Below, one piece after another: positions 3,424 through 9,057 of a stretch of 21,559 nt of DNA (within the stretch, counting starts at the first letter, position 1; each line of letters opens with the position of its first letter). Source of the stretch: a virus. The stretch covers positions 1-21,559 of the IMG/VR virus record IMGVR_UViG_3300004807_000151, one strand, 5' to 3'. The notes below the pieces were generated by a model. It ran no database searches, was not told the DNA's origin, and saw only the letters and a program-made list of their open reading frames with translations. The translations under genes and the position numbers were made by a program.

Positions 3424-3678
3424 ATGGCAATTATTACAGACGTACCAACAGACAGAACTATTTTTCCACAACAATATGTGAGAGTTGACAGAGTAAATAC
3501 AGACAAAAATCAAATGTTTGTTGATGTAGGAATATATTTTAACGAATCCATGAAAGATTTACCTCCTCATAGAATTGAACATGTGCAAGGTGAATTTGAT
3601 ATGTATAGCTCTGATAATTTATGGCAACAGGCTTATGTTTATGTTAAGAATCGTTGGCCAGAATATACTGATTGTTAA
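3424..3678 (+). CDS. Conserved-looking 84-residue phage protein of unknown function
   Basis: The start chosen is the ATG at 3424, preceded by AGAGG at 3412-3416; an in-frame ATG at 3388 has no ribosome-binding site and would add a hydrophobic tail overlapping the upstream ORF. The protein (MAIITDVPTDRTIFPQQYVRV...) is a small soluble alpha/beta-looking protein with a tryptophan/tyrosine-rich C-terminus (LWQQAYVYVKNRWPEY). Small proteins of this size often follow fibre genes in T4-like phages, but I cannot name a family. Its last 35 bases overlap the 3' end of the convergent epimerase gene. Confidence 0.65.
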   Translation: MAIITDVPTDRTIFPQQYVRVDRVNTDKNQMFVDVGIYFNESMKDLPPHRIEHVQGEFDMYSSDNLWQQAYVYVKNRWPEYTDC

Positions 3679-4495
3679 TAGCACACGAATATTTCTGATA
3701 ATGTTTCTTTAAGTTATCTGGCATAGGTATCCATTCAATAAGATCGGGGGAACCACAAACTTCTATTGCAACATCATAGAATGATTTTGGTTTCCCTGTT
3801 CCTACATCATATATACCCGATGAACTGTTTTCAAAATGCCATAGTTTCTGACGAATAACTTCTTCAACAGAAACAAAATCTCTAAAGAATTCTTTTGAAC
3901 CTTCAAATAACTTAATCTTTCCTGTTCTTTTCAGTTGTGTTTTAAATGTGTGATATGGGCTAGATTGACCTTCTTTATGATCTTCATTGGGTCCGTAAAC
4001 ATTAAAATATCGCATACCTTGAAGTAATTTAGGAGGTTTGGTGCTACTCATGACCAAGTTTGCAACATGATCGACTTGCATTTTAGATCGTGCATATGAA
4101 TTCAATGGATCCAAATCTTTATTTGGATTATGCCATTCTTCTTTTGATGGATTTCCATAAACGGAAGCTGAAGATGCATATTGTAGTGGTATTTCATTAT
4201 CTCGACAGTAATATATTAACTTCCATGTACAATTAACATTATACTTAAATAGTTTGTGTACATCATTTTCAGTTGTAGATGATATTGCACCTTCATGGAA
4301 TATAGCCTTTATGTTTTTATAATTTTCTATGTTACCATAGAACTCATCCGGAGGAGTAAATTGAATAGGTAAACCTTTGAAATATTCTGGCCTTTGTACA
4401 TAATCAACACAGATGATATTCTTTTCACCTCGTTCAACAAGTTCTCTGACAAGATTGGAACCAATAAACCCAGATGCACCTGTTACAATTATCAT
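3644..4495 (-). CDS. hldD: NAD(P)-dependent sugar-nucleotide epimerase, HldD-like (ADP-glyceromanno-heptose 6-epimerase)
   Basis: A 283-residue short-chain dehydrogenase/reductase. MIIVTGASGFIGSN gives the Rossmann GxxGxxG at residues 6-12. IFHEGAISSTTE (65-76), YASSASVYG (106-114), Y134-x3-K138, RYFNVYGP (162-169), the HK pair at 173-174 and FEGSxxFxRDFV (197-208) match the HldD family as I recall it; the family interconverts ADP-D- and L-glycero-manno-heptose for LPS core synthesis. The start is the ATG at 4495-4493; the longer reading frame to 4729 is an overlap with gp13. HldD is usually about 310 residues; this one stops about 25 residues early with a divergent end (CAINNQYILANDS). It is the only minus-strand gene and interrupts the T4 order between fibres and neck, so it looks like an acquired accessory gene. 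GDP-mannose- or UDP-glucose-type epimerase is a weaker alternative. Confidence 0.8.
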   Translation of the reverse strand: MIIVTGASGFIGSNLVRELVERGEKNIICVDYVQRPEYFKGLPIQFTPPDEFYGNIENYKNIKAIFHEGAISSTTENDVHKLFKYNVNCTWKLIYYCRDNEIPLQYASSASVYGNPSKEEWHNPNKDLDPLNSYARSKMQVDHVANLVMSSTKPPKLLQGMRYFNVYGPNEDHKEGQSSPYHTFKTQLKRTGKIKLFEGSKEFFRDFVSVEEVIRQKLWHFENSSSGIYDVGTGKPKSFYDVAIEVCGSPDLIEWIPMPDNLKKHYQKYSCAINNQYILANDS

Positions 4496-4543
4496 AAATA
4501 ATCTCGCATAAATAGAAATATATATAACAAATTCCAAACCATC
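4496..4543. promoter_or_regulatory. Divergent intergenic region between hldD-like gene and gene 13
   Basis: This 48-base AT-rich gap serves both strands. On the + strand, CATAAATA at 4507-4514 (one mismatch to the T4 late promoter TATAAATA) lies 30 bases before the gene 13 ATG. On the minus strand, a TATATATA-like stretch (about 4518-4527) precedes the epimerase start and could act as a late or sigma70 -10 element. No clear Shine-Dalgarno is present for either gene. Confidence 0.5.
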
Positions 4544-5320
4544 ATGGCAAACATAACATCTAGATCCCAATTTAAAGATTACTGTCTTCGTAGACTTGGT
4601 TTTCCAGTTATTGATATCAATGTAGATGATGACCAGGTTGAAGACAGAATTACTGATGCGCTTCAGTATTTTACTGACAGACATGCCGATGGTACACAAA
4701 AAGTTTATTATATCAAGGCTATAGAACAATCAGATATTGATAACAAATATCTGGATATGGATCCATCAGTCACAACTGATGCTGACAACAATGAAATGGA
4801 AATTGTTGGTGTCAGTAGAATATTTCCTATCTCCGATTCTCAGGCCAATGTCAACATGTTCGATCTTAGATATCAATTGAGATTGAATGAACTCTATGAC
4901 TTCACCTCCGCATCATACATCAACTATACACTCACCCAGCAGCATTTGCGTTCATTAGAAATAATGTTCACTGGTGAAGTTCCAATTCGTTACAATAGAC
5001 ACATGAAAAAGTTGTTCATTGATTGGGCATGGGGAACAGAAGTTATATTAGGTGATGTTGTTGTCGCTGAGTGTTATGCAACATTAAATCCTGATGTGTT
5101 CCCTGGTGTCTGGGATGATCGTTGGTTAAAAGAATATTGCACAGCACTCATCAAGAGAACTTGGGGAAGTAATCTAAAGAAATTTAAAGGAATTCAATTG
5201 CCGGGTGGAGTAGAATTAGATGGTGTAACAATTTACAGTGAAGCTGTGGATGAAATTGAAAGACTTGAATCTGAAATGGAATCAATGTTCGGCGCACCTT
5301 TGGAATTTTTCCTCAATTAA
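4544..5320 (+). CDS. 13: Neck protein gp13
   Basis: A 258-residue protein whose N-terminus (MANITSRSQFKDYCLRRLGFPVI...NVDDDQVEDRITDALQYF) is the recognisable start of gp13 neck proteins in T4-like phages. In T4, gp13 and gp14 form the neck that seals DNA-filled heads and joins them to tails. It is shorter than T4 gp13 (about 309 residues), as in other divergent T4-like phages. It is followed directly by gene 14 (one base between stop and ATG), as in T4. The family call rests on the N-terminal motif and synteny. Confidence 0.85.
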   Translation: MANITSRSQFKDYCLRRLGFPVIDINVDDDQVEDRITDALQYFTDRHADGTQKVYYIKAIEQSDIDNKYLDMDPSVTTDADNNEMEIVGVSRIFPISDSQANVNMFDLRYQLRLNELYDFTSASYINYTLTQQHLRSLEIMFTGEVPIRYNRHMKKLFIDWAWGTEVILGDVVVAECYATLNPDVFPGVWDDRWLKEYCTALIKRTWGSNLKKFKGIQLPGGVELDGVTIYSEAVDEIERLESEMESMFGAPLEFFLN

Positions 5321-5321
5321 T

Positions 5322-6209
5322 ATGCCAACTAATCACTATTTCAATAATTATGGAGCCAAGAACGAACAAAGGCTCGTAGAAGATTTGATTGTTGAATCAA
5401 TCAAAATCATGGGTACTGATGTATATTACCTACCCAATGACAATGATGCAGCTCGTGATTTAATTTATGGTGAAGATCCATTAAAGAAATTTCAATCTGC
5501 TTATCCAATTGAAATATATCCAAGTAATGTCATGGATTACGGCGGTGAAAAAGAATTGTTTGGTAAATTTGGTATAGAAATTAGAAACCAGATTACCGTT
5601 ATAATGTCTAAACGTTCTTTCTCACAAAGAGTACCACAAAATACATATACTAGACCCAGAGAGGGTGATTTGATTTATGTACCTTTCTTGAATGGTACTG
5701 GTGAACTTTATGAGATTAAATTTACCAATCAGAATAAAGACTTCTTTATGTTGGGTCGTAAAGTTCCGTATTTCTATGAACTGGAAATGGAGAAATTCAA
5801 GTATTCACAAGAAGTTATCAATACTGGTATTCCAGATATTGATGAAGTTACAACAAATTCTGCATACACCATAGATTTAATTATAAACAATACAACTGGT
5901 TCAGGTGATTATCAATTGCAAGAAATTGTATTCCAGTCGGCCGACAATACATTGGCCAATGCAACAACATCTGCTATAGTACAAAATTGGTCCTATACAG
6001 CAAATACACTATCTGTAACAAATATCTCCGGTGAATTCATAGATAATGTAATGATAAGAGGCGCAACAAGTAATGCACACTATACATTATATAATTATGA
6101 TCCTATGAACGTCAATGTGAAGAATGAACCTTATGATAACAAGGTCATTGAAAATGAAGCAAATAATTATATTGATAAGACAACAACCAATCCATTTGGA
6201 TCGTTATAA
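5322..6209 (+). CDS. 14: Neck protein gp14 with extra C-terminal domain
   Basis: Start is the ATG at 5322, one base after the gene 13 stop; a longer frame from 5238 is only overlap with gene 13. The first ~180 residues (MPTNHYFNNYGAKNEQRLVEDL... and RNQITVIMSKRSFSQRV) match gp14 of T4-like phages, the partner of gp13 in the head-to-tail neck. The protein has 295 residues against about 256 in T4. Residues about 188-285 form an additional domain that aligns with residues 226-320 of gp15 in this genome (see findings). The stop overlaps the gene 15 ATG (TAATG). Confidence 0.85.
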   Translation: MPTNHYFNNYGAKNEQRLVEDLIVESIKIMGTDVYYLPNDNDAARDLIYGEDPLKKFQSAYPIEIYPSNVMDYGGEKELFGKFGIEIRNQITVIMSKRSFSQRVPQNTYTRPREGDLIYVPFLNGTGELYEIKFTNQNKDFFMLGRKVPYFYELEMEKFKYSQEVINTGIPDIDEVTTNSAYTIDLIINNTTGSGDYQLQEIVFQSADNTLANATTSAIVQNWSYTANTLSVTNISGEFIDNVMIRGATSNAHYTLYNYDPMNVNVKNEPYDNKVIENEANNYIDKTTTNPFGSL

Positions 6210-7189
6210 TGGCAACTACTAATCAAAATAGAATCATAAGAAAATTGATAGTTGCCTTTGGTAATGTTTTCAATAATATTACACTTGTTCGTTACAATGA
6301 AAATAACACAGAACAAGAAAGGTTCTTGGTACCTATTACATACGCACCAAAAGAACTTTATGTTCAGAGATTGGAATCTGATCCAGACCTTGATAAAAAA
6401 GTTCAGATTACCTTACCTAGAATGTCATATGAAATGACAGGTATGGAATATGATTCAGACAGAAAACAGAATACGAACATAAAGAATTTTGCACAAACAA
6501 ATTCTTTACAATCACAATATAATCCAGTTCCATATAACTTTGATTTCTCACTTTCGATTTATACAAGAAATCATGAAGATGTTCACAATATAGTTGAATG
6601 TATTATACCGTTCTTCACTCCAGATTACACCATCAATGTTAATTTAATACCAGAAATGGGAATAACAAAAGAAATCCCAATTGTATTAAATTCAACAGAC
6701 AGAGAGGTGCATTATGATGGTAATCGTGATTCTGATACAAGAATGATTATTTGGACTTTGAATTTTACAGTCAAAGGATTTATTTTTGGTGCAGTAAGTC
6801 CGGTAACAAGTGGATTGATATTAAACTCTATAACAAACATATATAATGATATAACACCTAATACACCAATAACATTCACAATGAATCCTGCTGGTATTGG
6901 AAATTATAAAATTGGAGAGTTGGTATATCAAGGATATACATTAGAATCAGCTACAGCAACAGCAAAAGTTCAATACTGGAAAAATAATCTATTGTCGTTG
7001 ATATCTTTAGATGGAAATTTCATTTCATCTATGCCAATAGTAGGATCATCCAGTTTTGCAAAATACTATTTTACTTCTTATCAACCAGTAGAACAAAAAG
7101 AAGTAATGATTACTGTGGTTCCATATCCTAACACATCAAATGTTGCAAACAATTGGTTAGCAAACACACACATAACCGAATATACATAA
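6209..7189 (+). CDS. 15: Tail sheath terminator/stabiliser gp15 with extra C-terminal domain
   Basis: The N-terminal ~195 residues (RKLIVAFGNVFNNITLVRYN, VPITYAPKELYVQRLESDPD, YDGNRDSDTRMIIWTLNFTVKG) are typical of gp15, which in T4 caps the tail tube and sheath and connects the tail to the gp13/gp14 neck. The protein is 326 residues; T4 gp15 is about 272. The additional C-terminal part (about 200-326) contains a beta-rich module with GxYxxxExVxQ, ATxxAxVQxW and GxFI motifs that also occurs in gp14. ATG overlaps the gp14 stop, so expression is coupled. Confidence 0.85.
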   Translation: MATTNQNRIIRKLIVAFGNVFNNITLVRYNENNTEQERFLVPITYAPKELYVQRLESDPDLDKKVQITLPRMSYEMTGMEYDSDRKQNTNIKNFAQTNSLQSQYNPVPYNFDFSLSIYTRNHEDVHNIVECIIPFFTPDYTINVNLIPEMGITKEIPIVLNSTDREVHYDGNRDSDTRMIIWTLNFTVKGFIFGAVSPVTSGLILNSITNIYNDITPNTPITFTMNPAGIGNYKIGELVYQGYTLESATATAKVQYWKNNLLSLISLDGNFISSMPIVGSSSFAKYYFTSYQPVEQKEVMITVVPYPNTSNVANNWLANTHITEYT

Positions 7190-7215: not shown

Positions 7216-7890
7216 ATGTCCGGAATAAAACTATCACAATTACCAGCATTAACATCATTTAGTCCAACAGATACTAATATTTTGTTTTTGGTGGCGAATG
7301 AAAACGGAACACCAACTTCTCAGGCAGTAACCGCCAACACATTGTACTCGGTACTAACTTCCGGTAGTACAAACGAAGCGCAAGGTGCGTTCAATACTGC
7401 CAATATCGCTTACACTACAGCTAATATTGCTTACACTACAGCCAATTCGGCCTATACTACAGCTAACACTATGGTAAAAAAGGCCGGCGATACTATGACC
7501 GGCGCATTGGTTATTTCCAATACAACTACTTCTACGTCAAATACAACAGGAGCTTTAGTTGTTTCCGGAGGTATAGGTGTTAAAGGCAATGTATTCATTA
7601 GTGGCAATACTTACACAACATATATTAGCAGTCCTGTTGGATCAAGTGCAAATTTAATTCTCAATGCAGATGGTACAAATGATATTTTCATCACACCATC
7701 CACTCAACTTTTTTTACAAGATACTACGGCATCCACATCAAATTTAACAGGTGCATTGATAGTTGCGGGTGGTGTTGGTGTTTCTGGTAATGTCAATTGT
7801 AGTGCAACAATTAACGCAAACAATATGACATTAAATTCTGTGCCGGTGGCTAATTTTGTAACTATGTTGACTTTTAATTTAGCATTTTAA
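7216..7890 (+). CDS. Short tail-fibre-like virion protein with AYTTAN heptads
   Basis: A 224-residue protein. Residues 1-50 (MSGIKLSQLPALTSFSPTDT...) resemble the N-terminal attachment segment of phage fibres. Residues 58-85 are four AxxTANx heptads, the same repeat style as the fibre at the left edge of the window. KKAGDTMTGAL (88-98) is a widespread tail fibre motif. Two related beta-modules follow, STSNTTGALVVSGGIGVKG at about 106-124 and STSNLTGALIVAGGVGVSG at about 173-191. An AAAGG site 6 bases before the ATG acts as ribosome-binding site. It sits between gp15 and gp16, a position without a fibre gene in T4, so it is an inserted gene. Target and virion location are unknown. Confidence 0.7.
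   Translation: MSGIKLSQLPALTSFSPTDTNILFLVANENGTPTSQAVTANTLYSVLTSGSTNEAQGAFNTANIAYTTANIAYTTANSAYTTANTMVKKAGDTMTGALVISNTTTSTSNTTGALVVSGGIGVKGNVFISGNTYTTYISSPVGSSANLILNADGTNDIFITPSTQLFLQDTTASTSNLTGALIVAGGVGVSGNVNCSATINANNMTLNSVPVANFVTMLTFNLAF
7387..7470 (+). repeat. Four tandem 21-bp heptad repeats
   Basis: Four in-frame 21-base units encode AFNTANI, AYTTANI, AYTTANS and AYTTANT. The second to fourth units are nearly identical at DNA level (GCTTACACTACAGCTAAT-type), pointing to recent tandem duplication. Confidence 0.8.
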
Positions 7891-7895
7891 AAAAA

Positions 7896-7903
7896 TATAA
7901 ATA
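7896..7903 (+). promoter_or_regulatory. Late promoter motif TATAAATA
   Basis: Exact T4 late promoter consensus in the 46-base gap before the 7937 gene; distance to its ATG is 33 bases, leaving a leader of about 25 bases. Confidence 0.7.
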
Positions 7904-7936
7904 CCAAATCGGCGATCAAAAAGAGTAATCTGAAAT

Positions 7937-8380
7937 ATGAAACAATTATTATCATTCAGTCCAGTATTTAATCCAGCCACAGGAACTTTGGATTTTACAC
8001 AATATCCAGGTTTTAGTGTTAATAGATTATATGCAGTAATCAATGTAACTCAAAATTCTCCTTTATATGTTGCTGGTGCACCAGGTTATGGTATAGCAAA
8101 TACCATAGGTTCTGTAATTACACTATCAGCAAATACTTCTGCATATAGTACCACAGATAAAATAAATGTATATTATGATACTGATCCGGGTATTCAATCG
8201 AATACTGTGAAAGAGTATGGAGGATCGCTACAAGCGATGCAAGAAAGCATCGATCAAGTACTGGTTGAATTGAAGACCATGAATTTTATTTTAGCGCAAG
8301 GACTAAATATAAATATTGATGATATGCAAGCAATCAGAAATGATGTTAACAACATTCAGAACTCAAGTTCTGTATATTAA
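7937..8380 (+). CDS. Putative virion protein of unknown family
   Basis: A 147-residue protein. The first ~90 residues are a beta-rich domain (MKQLLSFSPVFNPATGTLDFTQYPGF, LYAVINVTQNSPLYVAGAPG, KINVYYDTDPG). The C-terminal ~55 residues (GSLQAMQESIDQVLVELKTMNFILAQGLN) form an amphipathic helix likely to coil. This arrangement of a small head plus coiled stem is typical of oligomeric phage appendage proteins. It has its own consensus late promoter and lies between a fibre-like gene and the 8410 gene. I do not recognise a named family; structural role is inferred from context. Confidence 0.6.
   Translation: MKQLLSFSPVFNPATGTLDFTQYPGFSVNRLYAVINVTQNSPLYVAGAPGYGIANTIGSVITLSANTSAYSTTDKINVYYDTDPGIQSNTVKEYGGSLQAMQESIDQVLVELKTMNFILAQGLNINIDDMQAIRNDVNNIQNSSSVY
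8308..8315 (+). promoter_or_regulatory. Candidate internal late promoter TATAAATA
   Basis: Exact late consensus inside the 3' part of the 7937 gene, 95 bases before the 8410 ATG. The flanking TATAAATATTGATGATATG is much like TATAAATATTGTGATGGTA before gene 18. It could drive the highly expressed-looking 8410 gene, but coding constraint (N-I-N-I) could also produce it by chance. Confidence 0.4.
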
Positions 8381-8409
8381 TAATTATTAATTAAAGAGGA
8401 TAAAAAACA

Positions 8410-9057
8410 ATGTTAATTCAAGGTCAAGTAGGCGCTCCGTCGTTGCAGGGTTCATTAGGTCCCGGTACAACTCCGGCTATTCGTCAGGGTCAGTTAGGTG
8501 ATGTAATTGTTAGTGAATTACACGGTCGTTATTATGAAACCAATTATCGTGGTTCACTTTTTGGTGCGGCACTTAATGCTATTACTGTAGGTTCTACCAA
8601 CATTACTCCAGTAAATGGTACTAACACCACTCCAATTTTCGCAATCTATAACCCTATCGGTTCTGGTAAGAATATCAGCATCGTAAAGGTTACACAGTCA
8701 TTAGTATCAGGAACACCAGGTGGTCCTTTACTTTGGAACGTAGTTGCTCTCCCACAGACAATCACAAACACAACCTATACCGTTCCATTCAACTTGTCTA
8801 CCCTAGCGCAGGCAGGTAGTATCGCTAAGTGCTGGACTCAGCAGGCTATTGGTTCAGCTACTGTATTAGGTACTGCATTCCGTACCGCTGGTGGTCAGGC
8901 TGCTATCGCAGCTGGTGCAGGTGTCAACTCTCTTGTTGAAGAATATGCAGGAGACTTCATCATTCCTCAGGGTGTTGCGGTTGCGCTTGTTGCTTATGCA
9001 GCTGGTACTTCACATATCCTAAGTGCATTTGTTGAATGGGAAGAAATTCCAGTTTAA
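8410..9057 (+). CDS. Putative abundant virion/decoration-type protein
   Basis: A 215-residue protein beginning MLIQGQVGAPSLQGSLGPGT...AIRQGQLGDVIVSELHGRYYETNYRG; the ELHGRYYE-type N-terminus is one I associate with uncharacterised structural proteins of many tailed phages. The remainder is beta-rich, small-residue-rich and ends in FVEWEEIPV. Ribosome-binding site AAAGAGG lies 9 bases upstream. Codon choice (GGT, CGT, GCT, GTT) is closer to the capsid gene 23 than to the neighbouring genes, the stop is doubled (TAATAA), and a strong terminator follows, all signs of a highly expressed virion component. Head decoration, neck whisker or fibre tip are possible; no function can be assigned from sequence. 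Confidence 0.65.
   Translation: MLIQGQVGAPSLQGSLGPGTTPAIRQGQLGDVIVSELHGRYYETNYRGSLFGAALNAITVGSTNITPVNGTNTTPIFAIYNPIGSGKNISIVKVTQSLVSGTPGGPLLWNVVALPQTITNTTYTVPFNLSTLAQAGSIAKCWTQQAIGSATVLGTAFRTAGGQAAIAAGAGVNSLVEEYAGDFIIPQGVAVALVAYAAGTSHILSAFVEWEEIPV

Follow-up and report, generated by a model that had tools for sequence, protein, structure and literature searches.

A predicted beta domain inserted into the adjacent neck proteins gp14 and gp15 of T4-like phages

Why would two neighboring neck proteins of a T4-like phage share a stretch of sequence near their C termini? The question is raised by a window of 21,559 nucleotides, a 21.6-kb IMG/VR virus record in which T4-type structural genes lie in a block. 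Its gp14 gene (5322..6209, plus strand) encodes a head-closure or neck protein of 295 aa (phrog_460, E 6e-67), and its gp15 gene (6209..7189, plus strand) encodes a tail terminator or sheath stabilizer of 326 aa. Over their cores, gp14 scores 104 bits against the T4_neck-protein family (PF11649, E 9e-30) and gp15 scores 223 bits against the T4-gp15_tss family (PF16724, E 4e-66), each with a cut-off of 25. The T4 gp14 structure matches the gp14 model at Z 11.4, other stopper proteins also match its core, and the T4 gp15 crystal structure (4hud) matches the core of the gp15 model at Z 14.9. Pfam and PHROGs assign the N-terminal ~185 residues of gp14 to the T4 neck protein and ~230 residues of gp15 to the sheath stabilizer. 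Beyond these N-terminal cores, neither protein has curated Pfam coverage.

The C-terminal parts of the two proteins contain homologous modules. A preliminary description had aligned them by eye and proposed that two adjacent neck components carry a paralogous domain, and both points hold. BLASTP matched gp14 174-287 to gp15 213-320 at 34% identity (E 4e-12), with no second significant match between the proteins. With phmmer, dozens of relatives gave the cross-match as well (E about 1e-6 to 1e-10), and hhalign of the gp14-module and gp15-module families returned a probability of 99.5% and an E value of 2.1e-22. These three results rule out chance similarity. A profile of the shared module, ~75–80 residues long, found exactly two places in the window, corresponding to residues 178-260 of gp14 (5853..6101, plus strand; E 4.6e-31) and residues ~217-292 of gp15 (6857..7084, plus strand; E 7e-34). 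Two of the motifs aligned by eye do not belong to it. The P-Y and A-N-N matches fall in the proteins' own tails, where PY and ANN each occur in 3 of 83 gp15 sequences, and PYDN and ANN in 10 and 9 of 80 gp14 sequences, respectively. From this location and rare conservation we take them to be coincidental.

Structure prediction suggests that the module folds independently as a small beta domain. AlphaFold models of gp14 and gp15, built with 32 and 37 sequences, are moderate as whole proteins (mean pLDDT 66 and 65) and confident over the modules (pLDDT 79–90 in gp14, 81–93 in gp15). The confident regions, gp14 183-258 and gp15 221-293, each comprise six predicted strands, which appear to form two similar three-stranded halves. 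Dissimilar profiles or folds had been named in advance as grounds for abandoning the relationship. Profile-profile similarity is instead significant and the predicted strand order identical, placing both copies in one domain family. Glycine and hydrophobic core residues make up most of the conserved positions.

The closest solved structures point to a baseplate protein. The gp14 module best matched residues about 762-846 of chains that we take to be T4-type gp7, from their length and their position in T4 baseplate entries (Z 7.9, 7.6 and 7.2 in three entries; rmsd 2.2–2.5 over 74–76 residues; 10–14% identity). The next match outside gp7 had Z 5.7. Since the gp7 matches lie under a caution line of Z 8, where such values can reflect a common arrangement, the likeness in fold is tentative; it covers the gp14 copy, the structure lists for gp15 being filled by its core. 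Sister contigs of the window encode gp7-like proteins with copies recognizable by sequence, whereas in the T4-like phage RB3 the module profile finds nothing at E 0.1. A PDB profile search with the module returned nothing below E 0.5. No Pfam or NCBIfam model matched at its cut-off, in libraries that list what had been described at their date. Ig-like and other accessory domains of phages are similar in kind, being small beta domains inserted in various virion proteins. The module differs in being a two-fold repeat of three strands each, and no Pfam Ig family scored above cut-off, with one of 16 module members touching an Ig-like model at E 0.07.

The module is an insertion that leaves the old C terminus in place. 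It had been described as an extra C-terminal domain; the shared domain is real, its terminal position is not. Relatives without the module retain the tail in both proteins, ruling out a C-terminal fusion. The gp14 tail (NEANNYID...NPFG; 6102..6206, plus strand) lies outside the module and is kept in the module-less gp14 of Mosig and DLP6, isolates outside the window's clade. The gp14 profile aligned to Mosig over positions 1-190 and then 275-293, and to DLP6 over 1-175 and then 270-291, with the module columns missing between. The C-terminal strand and tail of gp15, VMITVVPYPNTSNVANNWLANTHITEYT (7085..7186, plus strand), likewise lie outside the module. They are kept in loci L059, L068 and L096, whose gp15 lacks exactly the module block and, soon after a GLIxxxxTN strand, continues with a tail like that of gp15 proteins with the module. 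Against Mosig, the gp15 profile aligned over positions 4-218 and then 299-324, at residues 5-224 and 229-254. The gp15 insertion point comes after GLI..SITNIYND, which aligns with residues 207-215 of RB3 gp15, where a GLIRTTYTD strand begins at 207. In gp14 the insert lies between a strand aligned with RB3 residue 174 and the retained tail. The proposal that both proteins exceed their T4 counterparts by about the size of the module is rough against T4-type RB3 (gp14 295 vs 256 aa, +39; gp15 326 vs 272 aa, +54) and apt against the module-less gp15 of L068 (245 aa, +81).

The module is widespread in the window's clade of IMG/VR contigs, for which we use "freshwater" as a short label and not as a habitat finding. 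We sampled 80 loci found with gp14 and 80 found with a module-less gp15. Among distinct complete freshwater proteins, the module is present in 80 of 80 gp14 and 79 of 83 gp15, the exceptions being L059, L063, L068 and L096. Cyanomyovirus gp14 carries it in all 10 cases examined, some with extra GGSGYxxxP-type repeats inside or ahead of it. Cyanophage gp15 gave no convincing match to the module. Six cyanophage gp15 proteins (L082, L084, L085, L088, L092 and L093) have a different domain of ~70 residues (TTLxxxI...ExMxV...GNxLxVxRG...) adjoining the site that the module occupies in the window's clade, and other lineages too have different domains at these gp14 and gp15 ends.

Occurrence of the module extends beyond the neck. 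Longer sister contigs encode it within a gp8-like protein of ~465 aa, which matches phrog_438 and, weakly, the Phage-Gp8 family of Pfam, and as two tandem copies in a ~1190-aa protein that matches a baseplate wedge family (phrog_17744) and that we call gp7-like. In Syn19 it occurs in giant virion proteins, gp8 and VrlC, and module sequences also match PHROGs of structural and tail-fiber proteins. Thirteen of 16 module sequences match phrog_460 (best E 2e-16). This family, PHROG 460 (Hc2, cyanomyovirus gp14), matches the gp14 module plus tail over positions 265-376 (E 2e-13); as a whole-protein family it does not split the module out, and occurrences in gp15, gp13 and baseplate proteins fall outside its description. 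Our literature search, with most subscription journals outside its coverage, found no description of these gp14 and gp15 inserts. The module defines a domain without a Pfam name so far, moved between neck and baseplate proteins by T4-like phages of lakes and oceans.

Distribution indicates that the module is older in gp14 than in gp15. In a tree of gp15 cores, the module-less freshwater proteins fall in one clade (99/98). Two state changes are required. For gp15 it is therefore enough to assume a single gain, at the root of the freshwater lineage or close to it, accompanied or not by a single loss. In a tree of the modules, the freshwater copies from gp14, gp15, gp8 and gp7 form a group (85/94) that excludes most cyanophage copies. 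The best tree, inferred from 78 columns, which are few, places gp15 beside the gp8 and gp7 copies (89/76), and an AU test did not reject gp14 and gp15 as a single group (p 0.36). The module is old in gp14, where it is common to cyanomyoviruses, and gp15 probably acquired its copy at the root of the freshwater lineage or close to it. The notion that it is peculiar to the gp14-gp15 pair finds no support: it is older in gp14, occurs in gp7-like and gp8-like baseplate proteins, and has a permuted relative in gp13. Only with the window viewed in isolation does the pairing seem special.

Comparison with T4 locates the two copies in partner segments of the head-tail joint. In T4, the free neck shows gp14 178-256 as disordered, and in the virion this segment contacts gp15 203-245 extensively, the insertion regions of the two proteins binding each other as head meets tail; gp13 190-239 is the fibritin-binding domain (PMC12270204). 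The window has the core proteins and gene order of the T4 neck (gp13-gp14-gp15 plus a fibritin collar). Unlike the window, T4-type gp14 and gp15 lack the module, and the window's gp13 lacks the fibritin-binding stretch. The gp14 insert lies within the part corresponding to the T4 178-256 arm and the gp15 insert follows the aligned gp15 strand, so that each partner of the head-tail contact contains one copy. The carriers are adjacent neck components, as the preliminary description said, and the regions that match the modules touch each other in T4. By analogy with T4, the module would lie on the outside of the joint.

The module is a mobile domain of predicted beta fold, present as an insert in gp14 and gp15, and we consider it probable that it is displayed around the head-tail joint as decoration. 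T4-like phages of fresh and sea water insert it repeatedly into virion proteins. The gp14 copy occupies the stretch that corresponds to the T4 arm, which stays flexible until head and tail join, and the gp15 copy the stretch that in T4 receives this arm. The finished virion could carry up to six gp14 and six gp15 copies outside the joint as decoration or a cuff, adding bulk and contacts and presenting a fast-evolving surface. A surface collar built by the modules, as first suggested, is possible. Placement in the joining segments is the point of interest and can be tested by structure. It offers a concrete structural prediction for cyanomyovirus necks, marks these gp14 and gp15 segments as sites that would tolerate and display inserts, and suggests where laboratory phages might take inserts for display studies.

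A permuted form of the module appears in a third neck protein. Aligned with RB3 gp13, the gp13 of the window (258 aa; 4544..5320, plus strand) has no insert and shows a gap opposite most of T4 residues 190-239, so that it lacks the mark of a fibritin collar. Seven loci have a gp13 insert of ~78 residues. In L031, the permuted module profile spans the whole insert (27.9 bits, positions 6-77 of 79), against 21.1 bits over one half for the normal order and 8.8 bits for the best of 200 shuffles. The L078 insert is weaker (12.4 against 6.2 bits), and those of L047 and L055 are unconvincing taken alone. The two halves of the module resemble each other (probability 95% and E 3e-8 in the cyanophage set; above all 60 column shuffles in the full set), so the gp13 permutation may be another phase of the same two-fold repeat. 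In part of this lineage, for example L031 and L033, there is some chance that all three neck proteins carry this kind of module, gp13 in permuted form, and that up to 24 copies (12+6+6) make a collar without fibritin that braces the head-tail joint, although we hold this to be unlikely. If true, it would be an alternative route to a collar, in which reused inserts replace fibers.

The modules might instead bind host glycans or surface polymers as weak adhesins, a role similar to one proposed for Ig-like domains on phages. Their presence in peripheral baseplate proteins and tail-fiber PHROGs would suit such a role, as would their rapid sequence evolution. Also suggestive is the gp15 of Pelagibacter phage Mosig (L214, 12386-13984; 532 aa), whose long C-terminal extension, near the insert site of other lineages, has a weak laminin-G-like match (PDB phmmer E 0.004); Pfam does not confirm a lectin domain there, with no match at E 0.05. 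The module itself, however, matched no known binding domain in Pfam or the PDB, and its conserved glycine and hydrophobic core positions are expected from the fold alone. Surface binding is a possible but doubtful role.

Contact of the two segments in T4 (PMC12270204) could mean that the gp14 copy binds the gp15 copy directly, forming an interlocking ring that clamps head to tail. Pairing is frequent among paralogous folds. Yet the gp14 module occurs where gp15 has none, in ten sampled cyanophages and in L059, L063, L068 and L096, and the rate of evolution in the modules is about double that of the cores. Across 57 genomes with both proteins, the two copies showed no signal of co-evolution beyond that of the cores (partial Mantel r 0.09, p 0.10), which weakens the case for mutual binding. 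We therefore rate a docking latch as unlikely.

Selection bears on whether the inserts do anything at all. A functionless domain could be retained since it folds harmlessly at a permissive site; the module was lost or never gained in one gp15 clade, and the region is hypervariable in other T4-like phages. Over 256 pairs, however, dN/dS was 0.208 for the gp14 module and 0.176 for the gp15 module, compared with 0.070 and 0.077 for the respective cores. Purifying selection acts on the modules, though less strongly than on the cores. This constraint, the near-universal retention in the freshwater sample and the persistence of the gp14 copy across freshwater and marine lineages make a merely tolerated insert improbable.

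Anchoring of the proteins encoded between gp15 and gp16, as proposed for the fiber cassette next door, is most improbable: the cassette is present in the window and many relatives, but many module-bearing gp15 genes run directly into gp16 (L003, L014, L030, L031, L036, L057 and many more), with a gap of 14 bases in L003, one of the window's nearest relatives, so the module is independent of the cassette and does not require it.

Three small ORFs lie between gp15 and gp16 in the window (7216-9057). Of these, the first contains TANIAYTTAN repeats, with a weak alanine-zipper match, and hits head-decoration and tail-fiber PHROGs; the second and third have no matches. Upstream, a nucleotide-sugar epimerase gene (3644-4597, minus strand; phrog_540, E 1e-46) runs antisense between fiber-like genes and gp13. 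In a subclade near the window (L004–L008), gp15 was not found after gp14, and in L005 gp16 follows gp14 directly (4888-4913). Neither the L005 record (15.6 kb) nor those of L007 and L008 gave a match to the gp15 core, so the gene has probably moved elsewhere in these genomes. The gp17 terminase gene of L005 (5325-8074) is broken by an intein-like stretch with an HNH-type endonuclease-like ORF inside, as judged by eye. Also by eye, L028 has a 219-aa GIY-YIG homing endonuclease-like ORF between gp14 and gp15 (4952-5611), and its gp14-gp15 gap is shared by L029, L038, L042, L044, L147 and L155.
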